A stretch of 43,931 bases of DNA, from NCBI GenBank assembly GCA_002753185.1, contig PDZX01000032.1, positions 1-43,931 on the forward strand, in the 5' to 3' direction. Each line of letters starts with the position of its first letter. Within the stretch, counting starts at the first letter, position 1. A program made the position numbers and the translations under genes. The stretch is from Magnetococcales bacterium WMHbin3 (GTDB lineage Bacteria > Pseudomonadota > Magnetococcia > Magnetococcales > Magnetaquicoccaceae). Positions 6,192 through 13,613 of the stretch are shown piece after piece. The notes under the pieces are model-generated. The model saw nothing but the letters and a program-made list of their open reading frames with translations, had not been told where the DNA came from and did not search any database.

Positions 6192-6289
6192 TGGAGGCGT
6201 CGCATTTGACTTGTCTCCCCCTTGAAAACCAGGGAGAATGATCAGCGGGTGGATCTGAACTCCAGGCCATGGGGGGGGTGGGAAGGCGG

Positions 6290-7042
6290 ATGAAGCGTTC
6301 ACAGGAGTGGGAGGCGCTCGAACGACGGCTGACGGAGTGTGAACGGGAGTTGGAGCGGGCCAGGAACGATTTGCAGCAGTTCGCCTACTCCGCGTCACAC
6401 GATCTCCAGGAGCCGTTGCGGCTGATTGCCGGATATTCGCAGCTTTTGCACAGCCGCTATCACGGGACGCTGGATGACAAGGCGCACACCTTCCTGGATT
6501 TCATCACCGGCAGCGTCCGGCAGATGGAGGCGATGCTCAAGGGGTTGACCGAATTCTCCCGCGTCGAGACGCACGGCGGCCCGTTCGTCCCGACCCGGCT
6601 CGATGACGCGCTGGATCGGGCGCTCGGACATCTGCAACACGAGATTCGCCAGAGCGGGGCGCGGATCAGCCGCACTCCGCTGCCCGATGCACGCGTCGAT
6701 CCCGAACAGATCGAACGGCTCTTCTGGCATCTGATCGGCAACGCCATCCGTTTCAGGAGCGACGCTCCCCCGGACATTCATCTTGCGGCCAGCCGGGAAG
6801 AACAGCGCTGGCGGATCCTGGTCCGCGATAACGGCATCGGCATCCCGGCCCGGTTCGCCGAACGGGTGTTCGTCGTCTTTCAGAGGCTCCAGCCGCGCGA
6901 CCAATCCCCTGGCTCCGGGGTGGGACTGTCGGTCTGCAAACGGATCGTGGAACGGCATGGCGGCACGATCTGGGTGGACGCAACACCGGCACAAGGGACC
7001 ACCATCGGTTTTTCCCTGCCGGATCGCCACTTGTCGGAATGA
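6290..7042 (+). CDS. Soluble histidine kinase lacking a sensor domain (phytochrome-type HisKA)
   Basis: About 250 residues: a short N-terminal coiled coil, a HisKA segment SASHDLQEPLRLIAGYSQLL containing the phospho-His, and an HATPase domain with N box (LIGNAIRF), G1 (DNGIGI) and G2 (GSGVGLSVCKRIVE). It has no transmembrane or PAS region. The catalytic core closely resembles that of the next gene, suggesting tandem duplication. The start at 6290 follows GGGAAGG; an upstream ATG at 6269 is possible. The stop at 7042 is three bases before the next ATG, so the two kinases are probably co-translated. Kinases with the DLQEPLRLI signature often pair with Rcp1-type regulators, and one lies downstream. 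Confidence 0.8.
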   Translation: MKRSQEWEALERRLTECERELERARNDLQQFAYSASHDLQEPLRLIAGYSQLLHSRYHGTLDDKAHTFLDFITGSVRQMEAMLKGLTEFSRVETHGGPFVPTRLDDALDRALGHLQHEIRQSGARISRTPLPDARVDPEQIERLFWHLIGNAIRFRSDAPPDIHLAASREEQRWRILVRDNGIGIPARFAERVFVVFQRLQPRDQSPGSGVGLSVCKRIVERHGGTIWVDATPAQGTTIGFSLPDRHLSE

Positions 7043-7045
7043 CCC

Positions 7046-9280
7046 ATGAACCATCTCAACCCCATCGAAAAGAGACGCATTCTGCTGCTGGTGGTGATCA
7101 TGGCCTGCGTCGGCTTGACCATGAGCGGGGTCTCCATCGCCATCCTGTACGAGACCTCGTTCGAACAGACCAGGCAACGCCTGGTGCAAACCGTGCAAAG
7201 CCGCGCCCGGCTGATCGAGGCCATGACCCGCCATGAGATCGCCCGATTGAAGGATACGCCCGGCGAGATCGTCATGTCCCAGGTCGTGGAACACGTCATG
7301 ATGCCGGTGCGCGACGCCCATCACCGCTTCTCCGGGCTTGGCCGCACTGCGGAGTTCACCATGGGACGCCTGGAGGGGGATCAGATCGTATTCACGCTGC
7401 GGCACCGTGCCGCCTCCAGTCAGGACGAACCATTGCGGATCCCGATGCGCTCCTATTTTGCCGAACCGCTGCGCCAGGCGCTGCTGGGCCGCTCCGGGGT
7501 CCTGGTGGGGCCGGACTATCGCGGTGCGATCGTGTTGGCTGCCCACGAACCCGTGGCCCTGCTCGACATGGGGATGGTGGCCAAGATCGATCTGGAGGAG
7601 ATCCGGCAACCATTCATCAAGGCCGGCGCCATGGTGATGGGGATCGGCGCGGGGGTCATCGTCCTGGGGACGGCCCTGTTCTTCAAGATCGGCAACCCCA
7701 TGGTGCTGAAGCTGATGGAGACCGAGGCGCTGCGCCAGAGCCAACGGGAGCTTGGCGAGGCCAAGACGGCCTTGCAGGAGAAGGCGGTCCATCTGGACAA
7801 CATCTTACGCTCCTCCTCCGACCTGGCGATCGTCGCCACGGATCTGGCGTTTCGCATCCGGTACTTCAACCCGGCTGCCGAGCGGATGTTGCAGCAGCGC
7901 GCCGAGGAGATGCTCGAAAAGACGGTGCAGACCATTCACCAGGAGTTGGGGGTCGATCCGCAACGGTTCGCCCATGGCATCGAACAGGTCGTTCGCGGCG
8001 GCGAATACCCATTCGAAATGCGTGGGACGGTCGGCGACGCGCCGTATGTGCTGGAGGCCAGGGTCTCCGCCATCCTGGACCGGCAGGGCGAAGTGACCGG
8101 CTTCGTCCTGATGGCCCATGATGTGACCGATCTGCGCAAGGCGCGCGAGGCGCTCATCCGCTCGGAACGGAAATACCGCCTGCTGATCGAATCGGCCAAC
8201 GACGCCATTTTCGTGGCCGACGCCCAGACCGGGATCGTGCTGGATGCCAACCCGATGGCCGGCGAACTGCTCGGACGCCCGGTCGCCGAACTGATCGGGA
8301 TGCATCAAACCGGGTTGCATCCTCCCGATGAAGTACTCCGCTATCAGCAACTCTTTCAGGAGCAGGTCATCCAGGGACGGGGATTGTTGTCGGACATCCA
8401 CGTGGTGCGCAAGGACGGCCGGCACATCCCGGTGGACATCCGCGCCGGCGTGACCGACCTGGGCGACCAACTGGTGATTCTGGGGATCTTCCGCGACATG
8501 ACCGAACGCAAGGCTCACGAAGCGCGCCTCGTGGAGATGAACCTGGAACTGGAACAGCGGGTTGCCGGGCGGACCCTGGATCTGGAGCGCTCCAATCGGG
8601 ATCTGGAGCAGTTCGCCTACGTGGCCAGCCATGATCTTCAGGAACCGTTGCGGCTGATCACCGGTTACGTGCAACTGCTGGAAAAACGCTATCGCGGGCA
8701 ACTGGACGCGCAAGCCGACAAATACATCGCCTATGTCACCGATGGCGTCATCCACATGCAAAGCCTGATCAACAATCTGCTCGGCTACGCCCGGATGGGC
8801 AAGAACCGCCTTGCCAGGATACCGACCGATCTCGATGAGGTTTTCCGGCGCACCCTTCTCCATTGCGAACCGGTGATCCGCGCCACCGGCGCCGTGGTGA
8901 CCCATGACCCATTGCCGACAGTGTCGGTCGATCCGGTGCAGATGGGTCAACTGCTGCAGAATCTGCTCGGCAACGCCTTGAAATTCCGCGGCGAGCACGC
9001 TCCGGTGGTTCACGTGAGCGCAACGCGCGAGAAAGGATGCTGGACGATCGCCTGCCAGGATAACGGCATCGGCATCGATTCCAGGCACCAGGAACGCATT
9101 TTTCTGATCTTCCAGAAGTTGCACCCGCGCACCCGCTACGAGGGCACCGGCATCGGACTGACGGTCTGCAAGCGGATCGTCGAAGGCCACGGCGGTCGCA
9201 TCTGGGTGGAGTCCGCACCGGGGCAGGGCAGCCGGTTCGCCTTTACCATCCCGGCACCCCAGGATGAATCGCGCGGATGA
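7046..9280 (+). CDS. Membrane PAS-PAS sensor histidine kinase
   Basis: 744 residues. TM1 is at about 11-33, an extracytoplasmic region at about 34-190, and TM2 at about 195-215. A coiled coil, two PAS domains (roughly 245-360 and 370-495; the second has ANDAIFVADAQTGIVLDANP), HisKA (VASHDLQEPLRLITGYVQLL, about 520-590) and HATPase (LLGNALKF, DNGIGI, GTGIGLTVCKRIVE) follow. It belongs to the phytochrome/Cph1-like kinase class by its HisKA motif, but has no bilin-binding GAF/PHY module, so the signal is unknown. The Rcp1-type receiver gene begins 77 bases downstream and is the natural phosphoacceptor candidate (inference). Confidence 0.85.
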   Translation: MNHLNPIEKRRILLLVVIMACVGLTMSGVSIAILYETSFEQTRQRLVQTVQSRARLIEAMTRHEIARLKDTPGEIVMSQVVEHVMMPVRDAHHRFSGLGRTAEFTMGRLEGDQIVFTLRHRAASSQDEPLRIPMRSYFAEPLRQALLGRSGVLVGPDYRGAIVLAAHEPVALLDMGMVAKIDLEEIRQPFIKAGAMVMGIGAGVIVLGTALFFKIGNPMVLKLMETEALRQSQRELGEAKTALQEKAVHLDNILRSSSDLAIVATDLAFRIRYFNPAAERMLQQRAEEMLEKTVQTIHQELGVDPQRFAHGIEQVVRGGEYPFEMRGTVGDAPYVLEARVSAILDRQGEVTGFVLMAHDVTDLRKAREALIRSERKYRLLIESANDAIFVADAQTGIVLDANPMAGELLGRPVAELIGMHQTGLHPPDEVLRYQQLFQEQVIQGRGLLSDIHVVRKDGRHIPVDIRAGVTDLGDQLVILGIFRDMTERKAHEARLVEMNLELEQRVAGRTLDLERSNRDLEQFAYVASHDLQEPLRLITGYVQLLEKRYRGQLDAQADKYIAYVTDGVIHMQSLINNLLGYARMGKNRLARIPTDLDEVFRRTLLHCEPVIRATGAVVTHDPLPTVSVDPVQMGQLLQNLLGNALKFRGEHAPVVHVSATREKGCWTIACQDNGIGIDSRHQERIFLIFQKLHPRTRYEGTGIGLTVCKRIVEGHGGRIWVESAPGQGSRFAFTIPAPQDESRG

Positions 9281-9357: not shown

Positions 9358-9816
9358 ATGGATCCAGGCAGCGCCAAACCGGTGGAAATCCTGCTGGTGG
9401 AAGACAGCCCAGGCGACGTGGAGCTGACCCGCGAGGCGTTGGCCGACAGCAAACTGCTCAACCGCCTGAATGTGGTGGAGGATGGCGAGCAGGCGATGAG
9501 CTACCTGCGTCGCGAAGGCATTTACGCCTCTGCCACCCGCCCGGATGTGGTGTTGCTGGATCTCAACCTGCCGCGCAAGGATGGCCGCGAGGTGCTCGAG
9601 GAGATCAAGGCCGATCCGGCGCTCAAGGCCATCCCGGTGGTGATCCTGACCACATCGCAGGCCGAAGAGGACATCTTGCGCACTTACCAGTTGCATGCCA
9701 ACTGCTACATCACAAAACCCGTTGATTTGAATCAGTTCTTCGCGGTAGTCAAGTCGGTGGAGAATTTCTGGTTCTCGGTGGTGAAACTGCCACCAAAAAA
9801 CGGGGAGGCCTTTTAA
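9358..9816 (+). CDS. Rcp1-type single-domain response regulator
   Basis: 152 residues comprising one receiver domain: acidic pocket in [17 protein letters not shown], phospho-Asp in [20 protein letters not shown] switch threonine, and the conserved Lys in [10 protein letters not shown]. The [11 protein letters not shown] and ENFW features match Rcp1, the response regulator of the cyanobacterial phytochrome Cph1. It has no output domain, so it probably works by protein contact or phosphorelay. The start follows GGGGAG. Its position between two Cph1-type kinases and the Kai genes suggests it carries a kinase signal to or from the Kai complex; that link is inferred. Confidence 0.85.
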
Positions 9817-9835: not shown

Positions 9836-10690
9836 ATGCTGGATCAGACCGTTCGAGTGCTGCTCATCGAGGATGATCTCGGTTTCGCAACACTGCTCGA
9901 TGAGTGGTTGGCGGATCTGGAACGGCGACATTCGCTCTTTTCCCCCTCCCGGATCCGCCTCACCCAGGTGGCGCGACTCTCCCAGGCGGTGCTGGAACTG
10001 GCCGACGCCCCCTTCGACATCCTGCTGGTCGATCTGAATCTGCCCGACTCCACAGGATTGGACACCTTCGAACGGGTCCGCGCCCAGGCCGCCGATCTGC
10101 CGGTGATCGTGCTCTCCGGGCTGGATGACGAATCGCTCGCCATTCAGGCGGTGCGCAGCGGCGCCCAGGACTACCTGGTCAAAAACACCATCGATGGCAA
10201 TCTGCTCTTCCGGTCGATCCGTTACGCCCTGGAACGTCATGCCCTGCATCAGGCCCTGGAACGGGCGCGCGAGGAGGAACGGCGCACACGCGAACAAGGA
10301 TCGCTGGACCGACTATCCGACCGGAATGTCAGCCGGGTCGCCTCGCAAATGCTCGGCATCCAGGAGCTGAAACGGGATTATCAGGACCGCTTCATCAATC
10401 TGGTCGCCCGCTTCGGGCAGGTTCTCGACCGGCAGTGGCAGATGCGGACACACAAGGTACACTACAACATCGCCGACGATCTGAAGCAGATCGCCGCCGA
10501 ACTCGGCTTTCTGCGCTGCGGCCCCAGGGATGTGGTGGACATCTACCTGGCCACCCTGGAACAATGGGAGGAACCGGCCAATCCGCAGAAAAACGAAGCG
10601 CTCCATGAAGAGTGCCGTTATCTGGCCTTCGAACTGATGGGCCGAATGGTATCGTTTTATCGTCCCTACGCCATCGGTGGCGGCGGATGA
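9836..10690 (+). CDS. Receiver protein with C-terminal KaiA/RsbU_N-like helical domain (candidate KaiA analogue)
   Basis: 284 residues. Residues 1-125 are a receiver domain (LLIEDD; phospho-Asp66 in LLVDLNLPDSTG; Lys116). A charged coiled coil occupies about 135-165. Residues 175-280 are helical and align by eye with the KaiC-stimulating C-terminal domain of KaiA: PRDVVDIYLATLEQW (230-244) against the KaiA pattern PxxxVVEIHMxLMDEF, and ECRYLAFELMGRMVSFYR against the last KaiA helix, which ends in EMYRR. The spacing between these blocks is similar. RsbU N-terminal domains share this fold and are the main alternative. kaiB begins 45 bases downstream and then kaiC, the same order as cyanobacterial kaiABC. 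The start at 9836 follows GGGGAG. The receiver assignment is firm; the KaiA-like assignment is probable. Confidence 0.65.
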   Translation: MLDQTVRVLLIEDDLGFATLLDEWLADLERRHSLFSPSRIRLTQVARLSQAVLELADAPFDILLVDLNLPDSTGLDTFERVRAQAADLPVIVLSGLDDESLAIQAVRSGAQDYLVKNTIDGNLLFRSIRYALERHALHQALERAREEERRTREQGSLDRLSDRNVSRVASQMLGIQELKRDYQDRFINLVARFGQVLDRQWQMRTHKVHYNIADDLKQIAAELGFLRCGPRDVVDIYLATLEQWEEPANPQKNEALHEECRYLAFELMGRMVSFYRPYAIGGGG

Positions 10691-10735: not shown

Positions 10736-11035
10736 ATGAATACAAATGAAAAATTCCTGTTGAAACTCTACATCACCGGTCACACCCCTCGCTCGGAACG
10801 GGCCATCAAAAATCTGCGCCGGATCTGCGAGGAAGACCTGGGTGGCCGCTACGAGATGCGGGTGATCGACATCCTGGAGCAACCCCAGTTGGCGGAAGAC
10901 GAAAAAATCCTGGCCACCCCCACCCTGATCAAGGTGCTGCCACCCCCGCTGCGACGCATCATCGGCGATCTGTCGGATTCCGAAAAGGTGCTGCTGGGAC
11001 TGGATCTGCTCCCGGTCGAACTGAACCTGAAATAA
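10736..11035 (+). CDS. kaiB: KaiB circadian clock protein
   Basis: 99 residues. [43 protein letters not shown] and [19 protein letters not shown] match cyanobacterial KaiB nearly position by position, including the region that switches to a thioredoxin-like fold before binding the KaiC CI ring. In the cyanobacterial clock KaiB sequesters KaiA and promotes KaiC dephosphorylation. The start at 10736 was chosen because GGGGGAGG lies just upstream; an earlier in-frame ATG at 10715 would place that site inside the gene. It ends 14 bases before kaiC, so co-transcription is likely. Confidence 0.95.
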
Positions 11036-11049
11036 CCGCTCTTGCAAGG

Positions 11050-12576
11050 ATGAGCACAATGGCCATGGAATCTTCCAATACCCCTGTCGAAAAGCTCGGT
11101 ACCGGCATCGAAGGGTTCGATCTGATCGCGCAAGGCGGGCTGCCCAAGGGCCGCACCACCCTGATCACCGGAACCGCCGGCAGCGCCAAGACGGTCTTCG
11201 CGGCCCAGTTTCTGGCCGAGGGAATCCGCAAATCCGACGAACCGGGGGTGTTCGTCACCTTCGAGGAGCACCCCTCCGAAATCCGCAAGAACCTGCTCTC
11301 CATGAACTGGCCGATCCAGGAGTGGGAGACGCAAAACCGCTGGCGCTTCGTGGACGCCTCGCCACAACCGGGTCAGGAGACCATCGAATCCGGGGAGTTC
11401 GATCTGGGGGCGCTGCTGGCGCGCATCGAGCATGCCGTGCGCACCGTGGGCGCGCTAAGAATCTCCATCGACTCGCTGGGCGCGGTCTTTACGCTTTTCA
11501 ACAACGCCTCCCTGGTGCGCGCCGAACTGCGCCGACTGAGCGCGGCCCTGAAGGGGATGGGCATCACGGCGGTGATGACCGCCGAGCGGACCCACGAGTT
11601 CGGCGAGATCGCCCGCTTCGGGGTCGAGGAGTTCGTGGCCGACAACGTGATCATCCTGCGCAACGTCCTGGAGGCGGAAAAACGACGCCGCACCATCGAA
11701 ATCCTGAAATTCCGCGGCACCACCCATCAGAAGGGGGAGTATCCCTTCACCGTGCTCCCCGATCAGGGGATCGTCATCATCCCCCTGTCGGCCATCGAAC
11801 TCAAACAGCGTTCCTCCGACACCCGCGTCCCCTCCGGCAGCCCGGAGATGGACCGCATGTGCGGCGGCGGTTTCTTCCGCGATTCGCTCATCCTGGTCTC
11901 CGGGGCCACCGGGTGCGGCAAGACCCTGATGACCGCCGAATTCATCCACGGCGGCGCCAAAAAAGGGGAAAGATGTCTGCTGTTCGCCTACGAGGAGAGC
12001 CGCGAACAACTGCTGCGCAACGCCAATGGCTGGGGGATCGACTTCGAAACCCTGGAGCAAAACGGCCAGTTGCGCGTCATCTGCGCCTACCCCGAAAGCG
12101 CCGGCATGGAGGATCACCTGATCGCCATCAAACGCGAAATCGACGCCTTCAAACCCGACCGGGTGGCGGTGGACAGCGTTTCCGCGCTGGAACGGGTCGG
12201 CACCAACCGCGGCTTTCGCGAATTCATGATCAGTCTGGCCTCGTTCGTCAAGCACCAGGAGATCCCCGGCATGTTCACCGCCACCACGGCAACCCTGATG
12301 GGCGGACCCTCGGTGACCGAATCGCACTTCTCCTCGATCACCGACACCATCATCCTGCTGCGCTATGTGGAGATGCTCGGCGAGATGCGCCGCGGGGTGA
12401 CGGTACTCAAAATGCGCGGCTCCATGCACGAAAAGGACATCCGCGAATTCACCATCGACAACAAGGGGATGCACATCGGCAAACCGTTCCGCAACATCGT
12501 GGGCATCCTGACCGGCAAACCGGAGTATCTGAACGTGGAAAGCGTCGATCGCATCTCCGGCATGTTCCAGGATTGA
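11050..12576 (+). CDS. kaiC: KaiC, double-RecA circadian clock ATPase/autokinase
   Basis: 508 residues with both CI (about 10-250) and CII (about 255-490). The CI Walker A reads GTAGSAKT (41-48) with Ala where Gly precedes the Lys; CII has the regular GATGCGKT (285-292). The catalytic Glu pairs are present in VTFEEHP (CI) and AYEES (CII). The phosphorylation region TESHFSSITDTI gives Thr423, Ser428 and Ser429; the last replaces Thr432 of the Synechococcus protein. The C-terminal A-loop and tail are present but about ten residues shorter than in cyanobacteria. In the clock, CII autophosphorylates and CI hydrolyses ATP to set timing. An ATG at 11059 has better spacing from AAGGA and may be the true start. 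It follows kaiB directly. Confidence 0.95.
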   Translation: MSTMAMESSNTPVEKLGTGIEGFDLIAQGGLPKGRTTLITGTAGSAKTVFAAQFLAEGIRKSDEPGVFVTFEEHPSEIRKNLLSMNWPIQEWETQNRWRFVDASPQPGQETIESGEFDLGALLARIEHAVRTVGALRISIDSLGAVFTLFNNASLVRAELRRLSAALKGMGITAVMTAERTHEFGEIARFGVEEFVADNVIILRNVLEAEKRRRTIEILKFRGTTHQKGEYPFTVLPDQGIVIIPLSAIELKQRSSDTRVPSGSPEMDRMCGGGFFRDSLILVSGATGCGKTLMTAEFIHGGAKKGERCLLFAYEESREQLLRNANGWGIDFETLEQNGQLRVICAYPESAGMEDHLIAIKREIDAFKPDRVAVDSVSALERVGTNRGFREFMISLASFVKHQEIPGMFTATTATLMGGPSVTESHFSSITDTIILLRYVEMLGEMRRGVTVLKMRGSMHEKDIREFTIDNKGMHIGKPFRNIVGILTGKPEYLNVESVDRISGMFQD

Positions 12577-12591
12577 TGCGGTCCTCACCCC

Positions 12592-12892
12592 ATGCCCGGT
12601 TATTCGCCCAGCGACCGCTTCACGACCTGGCGCCTCCTGCTGGTGACAGACAACCCCGATGACGCGGAACGGATATGCAACCACCCGACCCATCCGCAGG
12701 CCGAGGTTGGCGCCCGTTTTCCGATCGAGGTCGCGGCCTCCCTCTTCATGCCATTGCGGGAACGGCATCTGGACCACATCGGTCGAGAAGCGGGCATTCT
12801 CCGTGGATGCCAGTCTCGCGATGCCGGAATTGATGGGCAATCTCACGGATCTCTACAGGGAGCGCGCCTTGGGGCGTGACGTACCGGAATGA
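12592..12892 (+). pseudogene. Decayed receiver/KaiA-like gene (second copy)
   Basis: No single frame covers this stretch sensibly. The first frame begins WRLLLVTDNPDDAERI, a recognisable receiver N-terminus whose acidic pocket is partly lost (TD for ED), followed by IEVAASLF and LRERHLDHI resembling the next receiver strands. A different frame ends with PELMGNLTDLYRERALGR, which parallels ELMGRMVSFYRPYA at the end of the intact receiver/KaiA-like protein at 9836-10690. The middle of the receiver and most of the helical domain are gone. Its stop overlaps the start of the second kaiB. It is best read as a remnant of a paralogue of the upstream gene. Confidence 0.55.
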
Positions 12893-13200
12893 ATGACCCC
12901 GGACTGTACCAATTCAGGCTCTACATCGTGGGCGATACCCCGTCCGGACAGCGAGCCAGGGATAATTTCAAAAAAATCCAGGAGTACCTGTCTCCCGACG
13001 AAGTGAGGCTGGAGGTGGTGGATATCCTGCAATCCCCGGAACGGGCGGAGATGGATCGCATCATCGCGGTACCGGCATTGGTGCGGGTCTCGCCTCCCCC
13101 CAGCTTCAAGATCATCGGCGATCTGTCCGACAGCACGCACCTGAGATCCTTCTTCGCCATCTCCGGCGAAAACCAGGCCTTCCAGAGAGAACGGTCATGA
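12889..13200 (+). CDS. Divergent KaiB paralogue
   Basis: 103 residues. RLYIVGDTPSGQRARDNFKK, VVDILQSPERAE, the AVPALVRVSPPPSFKIIGDL segment and a following DLSDS identify the KaiB family. It differs substantially from the kaiB at 10736 (for example AVPALV for ATPTLI) and has an extended, charged C-terminus. It is an open frame sitting between two ruined genes that correspond to kaiA-like and kaiC, so its original partner is lost. It could still bind the intact KaiC or be on its way to loss. No strong ribosome site is visible; translation was probably coupled to the upstream gene. Confidence 0.8.
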   Translation: MNDPGLYQFRLYIVGDTPSGQRARDNFKKIQEYLSPDEVRLEVVDILQSPERAEMDRIIAVPALVRVSPPPSFKIIGDLSDSTHLRSFFAISGENQAFQRERS

Positions 13201-13613
13201 ACAAAATGGCAAATGACATCATTCGCAAGATCCCCACGGGCATCGAGGGCCTGGAACACATCACCATGGGCGGTCTGCCCCAGGGCCGCACCTGCCTGCT
13301 CTCCGGGAGTTCGGAATCGGGCAAGACCATCCTGGCGCTCGAATACCCGGTGCGCGGCATCACCCGCTTCGGTCGCAAGGGGATTTCGTCACCATGGAGG
13401 GGCCGGTCGAGGACATCATACGCAACGTCCACAAGTTCGGCCCGGCCTCGGCCTTCCGCCGCGAGATCTTCCGCATCACCAAGGCGGTCAAGGACGATGG
13501 GGGTGACCGCCATTCTCACCGCCGAACGCGAACAGGAGTACATCATTCTCGGCATTCCTTTGGCGGTCGCTCCGTCCGAATCCGAACAACTCTGCGGCAT
13601 GTTAGAGGCGTAA
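13197..13613 (+). pseudogene. kaiC remnant with frameshifts and deletions
   Basis: The start overlaps the kaiB-paralogue stop by four bases, as in an operon. The first frame reads IRKIPTGIEGLEHITMGGLP, then a Walker A (GSSESGKT) typical of KaiC CI. Near 13390 the reading jumps frame: FVTMEGPVEDIIRNVHKFG continues the CI sequence in a different frame, then leads into FRREIFRITKAVKDDG, which normally lies about 80 residues further on, so an internal deletion is implied. Near 13500 the frame returns (GVTAILTAEREQEY). Nothing of CII remains. The product cannot be a working KaiC. Confidence 0.85.

Follow-up and report, generated by a model that had tools for sequence, protein, structure and literature searches.

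A Probable KaiA3-KaiB-KaiC Module in a Magnetococcales Bacterium and the Occurrence of Similar KaiA-Like Genes Beside kai Genes in Other Phyla

Introduction

KaiA acts on the tail of KaiC and thereby drives its phosphorylation. Outside cyanobacteria, Kai systems are usually portrayed as lacking KaiA and, therefore, as hourglasses. The closest described relative of the gene studied here is KaiA3, and the available parts of PMC11372060, in which it is defined, state that Synechocystis KaiA3 stimulates the phosphorylation of KaiC3 and, together with KaiB3, gives damped cycles in vitro; five non-cyanobacterial genera with KaiA3 are already named there, and RsbU_N and the KaiA C-terminal domain are said to have a common fold. 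For magnetotactic bacteria, the accessible text of PMC10278575 describes kai systems as kaiBC-based and reports multiple kaiB and kaiC copies in magnetotactic lineages, a feature shared with the genome studied here, whereas, in XS-1, the isolate of that study, a contig (L077) carries two KaiA-like genes next to kai loci. KaiA-like genes in magnetotactic bacteria call their kaiBC-only description into question. No paper describing KaiA3 in Magnetococcales or Nitrospirota was present among the open-access literature matches listed.

In the present study, the window, i.e., the whole analysed stretch of 43,931 nucleotides (contig PDZX01000032.1 of Magnetococcales bacterium WMHbin3), was found to carry a gene that can firmly be placed as KaiA3. 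The novelty that the first-pass annotation had claimed for this gene was too strong, because KaiA3 was published in 2024 with the five non-cyanobacterial genera mentioned above; the kind is, therefore, already known, and what is added here is its wider spread across phyla, with similar genes beside kai genes in many of them. This wider pattern, comprising many phyla, interchangeable N-terminal domains and tandem types, is the more interesting part compared with the single gene.

Domain Organization and Gene Neighborhood

The type I kaiA3 gene of the window (9836-10690, forward strand, as are all features given below) encodes a protein of 284 aa, in which a receiver domain is fused to a four-helix C-terminal domain, and is followed directly by kaiB and a full-length kaiC; this organization is confirmed. 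The receiver domain (9836-10240, about residues 1-135) is matched by Pfam Response_reg over residues 34-120 (5e-16), shows alternating strands and helices in the AlphaFold model and has all of the receiver residues E12, D13, D14, D66 and K116. Asp66 (codon at 10031-10033), the predicted phospho-acceptor, is invariant across 37 aligned receiver-type rows (alignment A5), which consist of the window protein and 36 of the 66 KaiA-like ORFs from 80 KaiB loci. The KaiA-like domain (10382-10675), delimited by AlphaFold, Foldseek and profile, has helices at residues 183-206, 212-225, 230-244 and 250-280. Within this domain, PRDVVDIYLATLEQW begins at residue 230 and ECRYLAFELMGRMVSFYR at residue 259, and both line up with the C-terminal blocks of 19 cyanobacterial KaiA proteins, e.g., IVEIHMELMDEF and DYRLTLIDIIAHLCEMYR, with a similar gap as counted by eye, which bears out the earlier observation of two conserved KaiA blocks at similar spacing.

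The gene belongs to a co-directional and tightly packed set (6269-7042, 7046-9280, 9358-9816, 9836-10690, 10736-11035 and 11050-12576), the gaps being 3, 77, 19, 45 and 14 bases in order. The first gene (6269-7042) encodes a histidine kinase, the DHp and ATPase parts of which were read by eye and homologues of which lie upstream of KaiA3 in related loci, while the second (7046-9280) encodes a PAS-PAS-HisKA-HATPase sensor kinase according to Pfam, with homologues that precede KaiA3 in loci of Magnetococcales and others. The third gene (9358-9816) encodes a single-domain receiver of 152 aa (Pfam Response_reg, 2.8e-21), which is presumably Rcp-like, and its homologues are located directly upstream of receiver-type KaiA3, e.g., in L060, L063, L070, L074, L099, L103, L115 and L125.

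Downstream of kaiA3, the kaiB-I gene (10736-11035) has an ATG start after GGGGGAGG and matches Pfam KaiB (9.6e-32); its product scores 131.9 bits against NCBIfam PRK09301, above the cut-off of 110, and 123 bits against circ_KaiB, under the cut-off of 145.3. The kaiC-I gene (11050-12576) encodes a full-length protein of 508 aa with both ATPase domains, both P-loops and both glutamate pairs (FVTFEE and AYEES), and matches NCBIfam circ_KaiC above the cut-off (2.4e-192). Its phosphosite, Ser428-Ser429 in SVTESHFSSITDT, is of the Ser-Ser kind, which places KaiC-I in the minority among the KaiC proteins compared (14 SS and 51 ST) and which is a feature of type I KaiC in Magnetococcales. The three-gene module of kaiA-like gene, kaiB and kaiC, as read in the first-pass annotation, is thus upheld, with kaiB and then kaiC directly downstream and the same order in relatives.

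In comparison with KaiA3 (Sll0485) of Synechocystis PCC 6803, as presented in the available parts of PMC11372060, the window protein has the same combination of receiver and KaiA-like C-terminal domain, a similar length, the conserved Asp and a gene position directly before kaiB. However, kaiC lies directly downstream in the window, while kaiC3 is located elsewhere in Synechocystis according to the same parts of PMC11372060. Unlike the Synechocystis KaiA3 system, the window also has a non-cyanobacterial host, upstream kinases together with a single-domain regulator, the Ser-Ser phosphosite and the remains of a second module behind. The canonical KaiA (Pfam PF07688) is like the window protein in its C-terminal fold and in its two best conserved helix blocks, but identity amounts to only about 10% in structural and profile alignments, and KaiA has a pseudo-receiver that lacks the phospho-acceptor, or no N-terminal domain, where the window protein has a true receiver with Asp66.

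Signal Input, KaiC Tail and Timing

By analogy with the published work on Synechocystis KaiA3 and with KaiA, the C-terminal domain of the window KaiA3 would dimerise and grip the C-terminal tail of KaiC, KaiA3 on the tail might promote KaiC autophosphorylation at the paired CII serines, and KaiC-bound KaiB might oppose this stimulation. The proposed docking segment for KaiA3 is the KaiC-I tail NVESVDRISGMFQD (12532-12573), which was singled out in a post hoc tail comparison and carries, as DRISGMF, a motif consisting of R, K or Q, three residues, M or L, and F. This motif ends all of the 58 readable KaiC ORFs of KaiA-linked loci, among which the window KaiC was not counted, and is present in 1 of 9 KaiC proteins of non-KaiA-linked loci, one of the nine, L113, having no visible upstream region; the second KaiC of L115, with no readable tail by the rule used, stands outside the comparison. 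Since the motif was defined after the tails had been seen, and since the tree offers just 1-3 independent pairs, the correlation between tail motif and KaiA linkage is only suggestive. In cyanobacteria, KaiA binds the KaiC tail, as indicated by the available description of the KaiA-peptide structure 5c5e. In addition, the KaiC proteins beside kaiB in Methylococcaceae (L098, L109 and L113) and Methylovulum (L096), where no KaiA-like gene was seen, differ in their tail, which contains GCVNWQ or a variant thereof.

As for the input, the upstream kinases, possibly via the neighboring single-domain regulator, might phosphorylate Asp66 and thereby change the activity of KaiA3, as gene neighborhoods indirectly suggest. 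Among 56 of the 66 KaiA-like ORFs that have at least 1.2 kb upstream (10 with under 1.2 kb were not counted), a homologue of the 9358-9816 regulator occurs within 1.5 kb of 20 of 38 receiver-type KaiA3 genes compared with 1 of 18 of other types (Fisher p 8e-4, relatedness ignored), while a kinase like that of 7046-9280 occurs within 4 kb in 23/38 and 4/18 cases, respectively (p 0.01, relatedness ignored). L062 was scored as without regulator in this test, though a 91% match overlaps its extended open frame. The 20 regulator-positive cases comprise ten from Magnetococcales, two from Competibacter, four from Chloroflexota, one each from a Helarchaeota bin, a Rhodovibrionaceae bin and a Verrucomicrobia bin, and one from another bacterium. 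Together, the invariance of D66, the upstream kinases and regulator, and the enrichment of such neighbors would fit signal entry through the receiver. If phosphorylation of Asp66 does change KaiA3 activity, a sensory signal could set or reset the putative phosphorylation timer, and such gating would give a clock formed by the module a built-in two-component input, which would be an unusually simple route of resetting.

A variant of this explanation, compatible with it, is that the module works as a driven timer or switch and not as an oscillator: when the two-component signal is on, KaiA3 would stimulate the phosphorylation of KaiC-I, KaiB and dephosphorylation would reset it, and nothing would free-run. 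We give this variant a little less than an even chance. The Ser-Ser phosphosite of Magnetococcales type I KaiC and the kinases and regulator upstream speak for it, as do the damped in vitro cycles reported for KaiA3 in the available parts of PMC11372060, while many of the loci examined retain a KaiA-like gene alongside kaiB and kaiC, as an oscillator would need, although this, too, is compatible with a driven timer.

Relationship of the C-Terminal Domain to KaiA and RsbU_N

A Foldseek search with the full-length model was dominated by response regulators and had no KaiA among the 50 rows listed, and the C-terminal domain was, therefore, folded alone. The AlphaFold model obtained is a four-helix domain (pLDDT 88.7, pTM 0.81), which Foldseek matched to the KaiA entries 1v2z, 1q6a and 1r5q at TM 0.68-0.75 by target length. 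Among the 50 rows listed for this domain, KaiA entries alone had a TM of at least 0.55 by both lengths, none of the matches had an E-value of 0.001 or less, and the first rank by E-value was taken by a designed scaffold with a TM near 0.4.

At the sequence level, significant similarity to KaiA emerges only with the wider family and not from the window protein by itself. The window protein alone has no Pfam or NCBIfam match in its C-terminal part, and, in this respect, differs from canonical KaiA; Pfam KaiA gave no match over its cut-off in the window's own genome either, and phmmer with the window protein against PDB found nothing relevant. When the profile was restricted to Magnetococcales, with both types included, KaiA was matched only at E 1.6 and ranked below unrelated proteins. 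Alignments A1 and A2 consisted of 18 and 12 hand-picked domains, respectively, while the family alignment A6 (63 rows) comprised the window protein and 62 of 65 listed KaiA-like domains; L127, a partial domain, was left off the list, and A6 does not include L089, L108 or the second L132 copy. With this 63-row profile, the top 8 matches among PDB sequences were KaiA, the best being 1q6a (E 0.003).

Conversely, an HMM built only from 19 cyanobacterial KaiA C-terminal domains, in which the row of L153 was short after trimming, gave 5 matches at E up to 10 among 6957 ORFs and proteins, all at KaiA3-like domains (1.6e-6, 0.0018, 0.0062, 0.0085 for Synechocystis salina, and 0.056). The best of these is from Ca. 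Magnetocorallium isolate XS-1, where the same place by coordinates scores above the Pfam KaiA cut-off when the whole genome is searched (25.4 vs. 22.2 bits). Moreover, in hhalign, the KaiA3-like family and cyanobacterial KaiA aligned with a score of 32.1 (probability 72%, E 3.5e-5 for a single comparison), a value that was reached by none of 200 column shuffles (maximum 22.3) or 200 block shuffles (maximum 28.8). A chance match from a phylum search (G240/L053, E 5e-4) was rejected, as its frame looks like a histidine kinase by eye.

The domain could also be a module of the RsbU_N kind, the docking partner of which would not be KaiC but, e.g., an RsbT-like protein or a kinase, so that its closeness to kaiBC would reflect shared regulation only; we regard this as improbable. 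The N-terminal domain of RsbU (PF08673) and the KaiA C-terminal domain share a related fold according to the accessible text of PMC11372060, some copies in Chloroflexota are not near kai genes, and, with E values up to 1 admitted, Pfam RsbU_N is weakly matched by 7 of the 63 family members, the lowest value (0.0011) being on a par with the 0.0012 that an unrelated family attains in that scan. KaiA and RsbU_N are the two commonest Pfam families among the 63 members, but KaiA matches are more numerous and stronger (11/63 at E up to 1, best 8.9e-6, in addition to the top 8 among PDB sequences), so that the comparison with both families suggested at the outset came down on the side of KaiA. In addition, the window protein carries a receiver instead of the phosphatase domain, neither it nor the window's own genome has a Pfam RsbU_N match, and, among 41 relatives, which are related genomes and not independent, the KaiA-like domain is present in 18 of 20 with KaiB (the exceptions being G026 and G007) and in 0 of 21 without KaiB. 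Less probable still is a convergent four-helix output domain of response regulators unrelated to KaiA. Helical bundles match loosely in fold searches, the Foldseek E-values are not significant and single-sequence searches fail, all of which would fit convergence, but the real hhalign score exceeds all 400 shuffles, one family member lies above the Pfam KaiA cut-off, and the KaiA-only HMM reports this family alone among the 6957 sequences.

The KaiA-like nature of the domain is also reflected in a tree of 82 C-terminal domains, which has few columns, long branches (program warning) and weak inner forks, and which was built without PCC 6803 KaiA3 and the KaiA row L153. In this tree, 18 KaiA proteins lie on one side of a branch supported at 100/100, with the window protein on the opposite side. 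The type I group (14 rows, 100/99) contains the window protein and falls, together with KaiA3 of Synechocystis salina and cyanobacterium RL_1_2, within one 57-row group (100/99) apart from KaiA, so that it is the Synechocystis salina copy that links the window protein to Sll0485-type KaiA3; the type II proteins are placed outside the 57-row group, on the KaiA side, and form no single clade. The KaiB-I bait retrieved the kaiA3-kaiB locus of Synechocystis salina, at 66%.

The gene is identified as KaiA3 because it combines a receiver, a family profile and fold that reach KaiA, and a position in the tree with Synechocystis salina KaiA3; the original KaiA-like reading of its C-terminal domain is, thus, supported by profile, fold, tree and synteny. 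Probably, therefore, 9836-10690 is a KaiA3 orthologue in a Magnetococcales bacterium, which, together with kaiB-I and kaiC-I, makes up a KaiA3-KaiB-KaiC module in which KaiA3 would promote the phosphorylation of KaiC. Points that speak against this explanation are the Ser-Ser phosphosite, the circ_KaiB score of KaiB-I below the cut-off, the KaiB loci that lack the domain and the copies of the domain away from kai genes.

Distribution of the KaiA-Like Domain

In a survey of the class, a KaiA-like match was present in 20 of 48 genomes, and kaiB or kaiC lay within about 1.5 kb at 22 of 23 class loci outside the window's own genome, the locus L017 running off its contig. A scan baited with an alignment of the KaiB proteins behind kaiA3 covered the top 80 among 189 relatives from named genomes, i.e., the most KaiB-similar ones and not a random sample, and the KaiA-like domain was found beside kaiB in 62 of these 80 loci, from many phyla: it ends within 700 bp upstream of kaiB in 57 and lies just downstream in 5, which are from Magnetococcales. 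It was absent from the other 18, of which L113 and L122 show under 300 bases upstream.

With the 63-row profile at E up to 1e-5, genomes with a match numbered 14 of 201 in Chloroflexota and 22 of 244 in Cyanobacteria; 43 loci of these two phyla were fetched, and kaiB or kaiC was located within 1.5 kb in 31 of them and not in 12. A strict linkage of the domain to kai genes was, therefore, rejected, and the domain is not exclusively a kai part. Eight of the 12 unlinked loci are from 7 Chloroflexota genomes, 6 of which also have a kai-linked copy, with L173 running off its contig, and the other 4 are from Cyanobacteria, comprising L206, a strong match with a PAS-like N-terminal part, and the weaker L207-L209. 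The first-pass annotation had named as adverse outcomes a fold unlike KaiA and a generic domain found widely away from kai genes; neither was obtained, although a minority of members (the 12/43 loci) does lie away from kai. Receiver plus KaiA-like proteins with no kaiB or kaiC within 1.5 kb were seen in Chloroflexota (L171, L172, L181, L182, L185 and L186).

Based on these surveys, KaiA-equipped clocks may be the norm in KaiB3-KaiC3-like systems well outside cyanobacteria, with an exchangeable sensor (receiver, PAS-like, or little or none in some Planctomycetota), tandem types I and II in some Magnetococcales, and a KaiC tail kept only with a KaiA-like partner, a generalization for and against which we see the chances as evenly balanced. 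Should activators of the KaiA3 type prove widespread, the reconstitution of defined three-protein sets would make it possible to test for true circadian clocks in prokaryotes other than cyanobacteria.

As regards the N-terminal parts, the KaiA-like domain ahead of kaiB in L073, L076, L082, L088, L090, L079 and L080 has a non-receiver N-terminal part, in some cases PAS-like by eye, or belongs to a short ORF, and short KaiA-like ORFs of about 173 aa with no recognised N-terminal domain were seen in Planctomycetota. Some assignments call for caution: L087, the contig of which is labelled Synechococcaceae, clusters with the KaiA3 of Competibacter, and L067, labelled Thiotrichales, groups inside Magnetococcales, both of which may reflect misbinning or mislabelling, while the kaiA3-kaiB-kaiC set of L115 lies on a 605-kb contig attributed to a Helarchaeota archaeon, either by transfer or by a binning error.

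Second Module and Other Copies

Right behind the intact module, the region 12577-13613 is a decayed second kaiA3-kaiB-kaiC module (type II), in which a full open frame is kept by kaiB-II only. The type II kaiA3 remnant includes the start of a receiver (12610-12744; matched by the L064 type II protein in tblastn at 36% over 45 aa, E 3e-4) and, in another frame, the end of a KaiA-like domain (12758-12883; profile E 5.8e-7; tblastn 61% over 41 aa, E 2e-13). The kaiB-II gene (12889-13200) is an intact open reading frame matched by Pfam KaiB (1.7e-21). It is followed by a kaiC-II remnant (13197-13613), which is covered by Pfam over 52 residues and in which the tblastn pieces correspond to residues 23-105, 167-202 and 502-526 of the L064 KaiC-II frame, so that segments are lost and the frame changes. 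A type II gene is present in 8 of the 20 class genomes with a KaiA-like match, and L064 and L067 have kaiA3-I, kaiB-I and kaiC-I, followed by kaiA3-II and kaiC-II.

The window's own genome also carries a second type I kaiA3-kaiB-kaiC set on contig C109 (L008, 3809-6863), the KaiC of which is about 81% identical to that of the window, while the KaiA3 is only 46% identical. A kaiB-II gene lies behind this set, and no kaiC-II was found there by tblastn. Further on, C109 contains a 766-aa frame that is hybrid-kinase-like and starts with a receiver 42% like that of KaiA3. Moreover, kaiC-I seems to be shortened in two other loci in which KaiA3-I and KaiB-I look whole: in L016, the match to the window KaiC is confined to its residues 4-61 and 226-508, and the frame in L064 has 352 aa.
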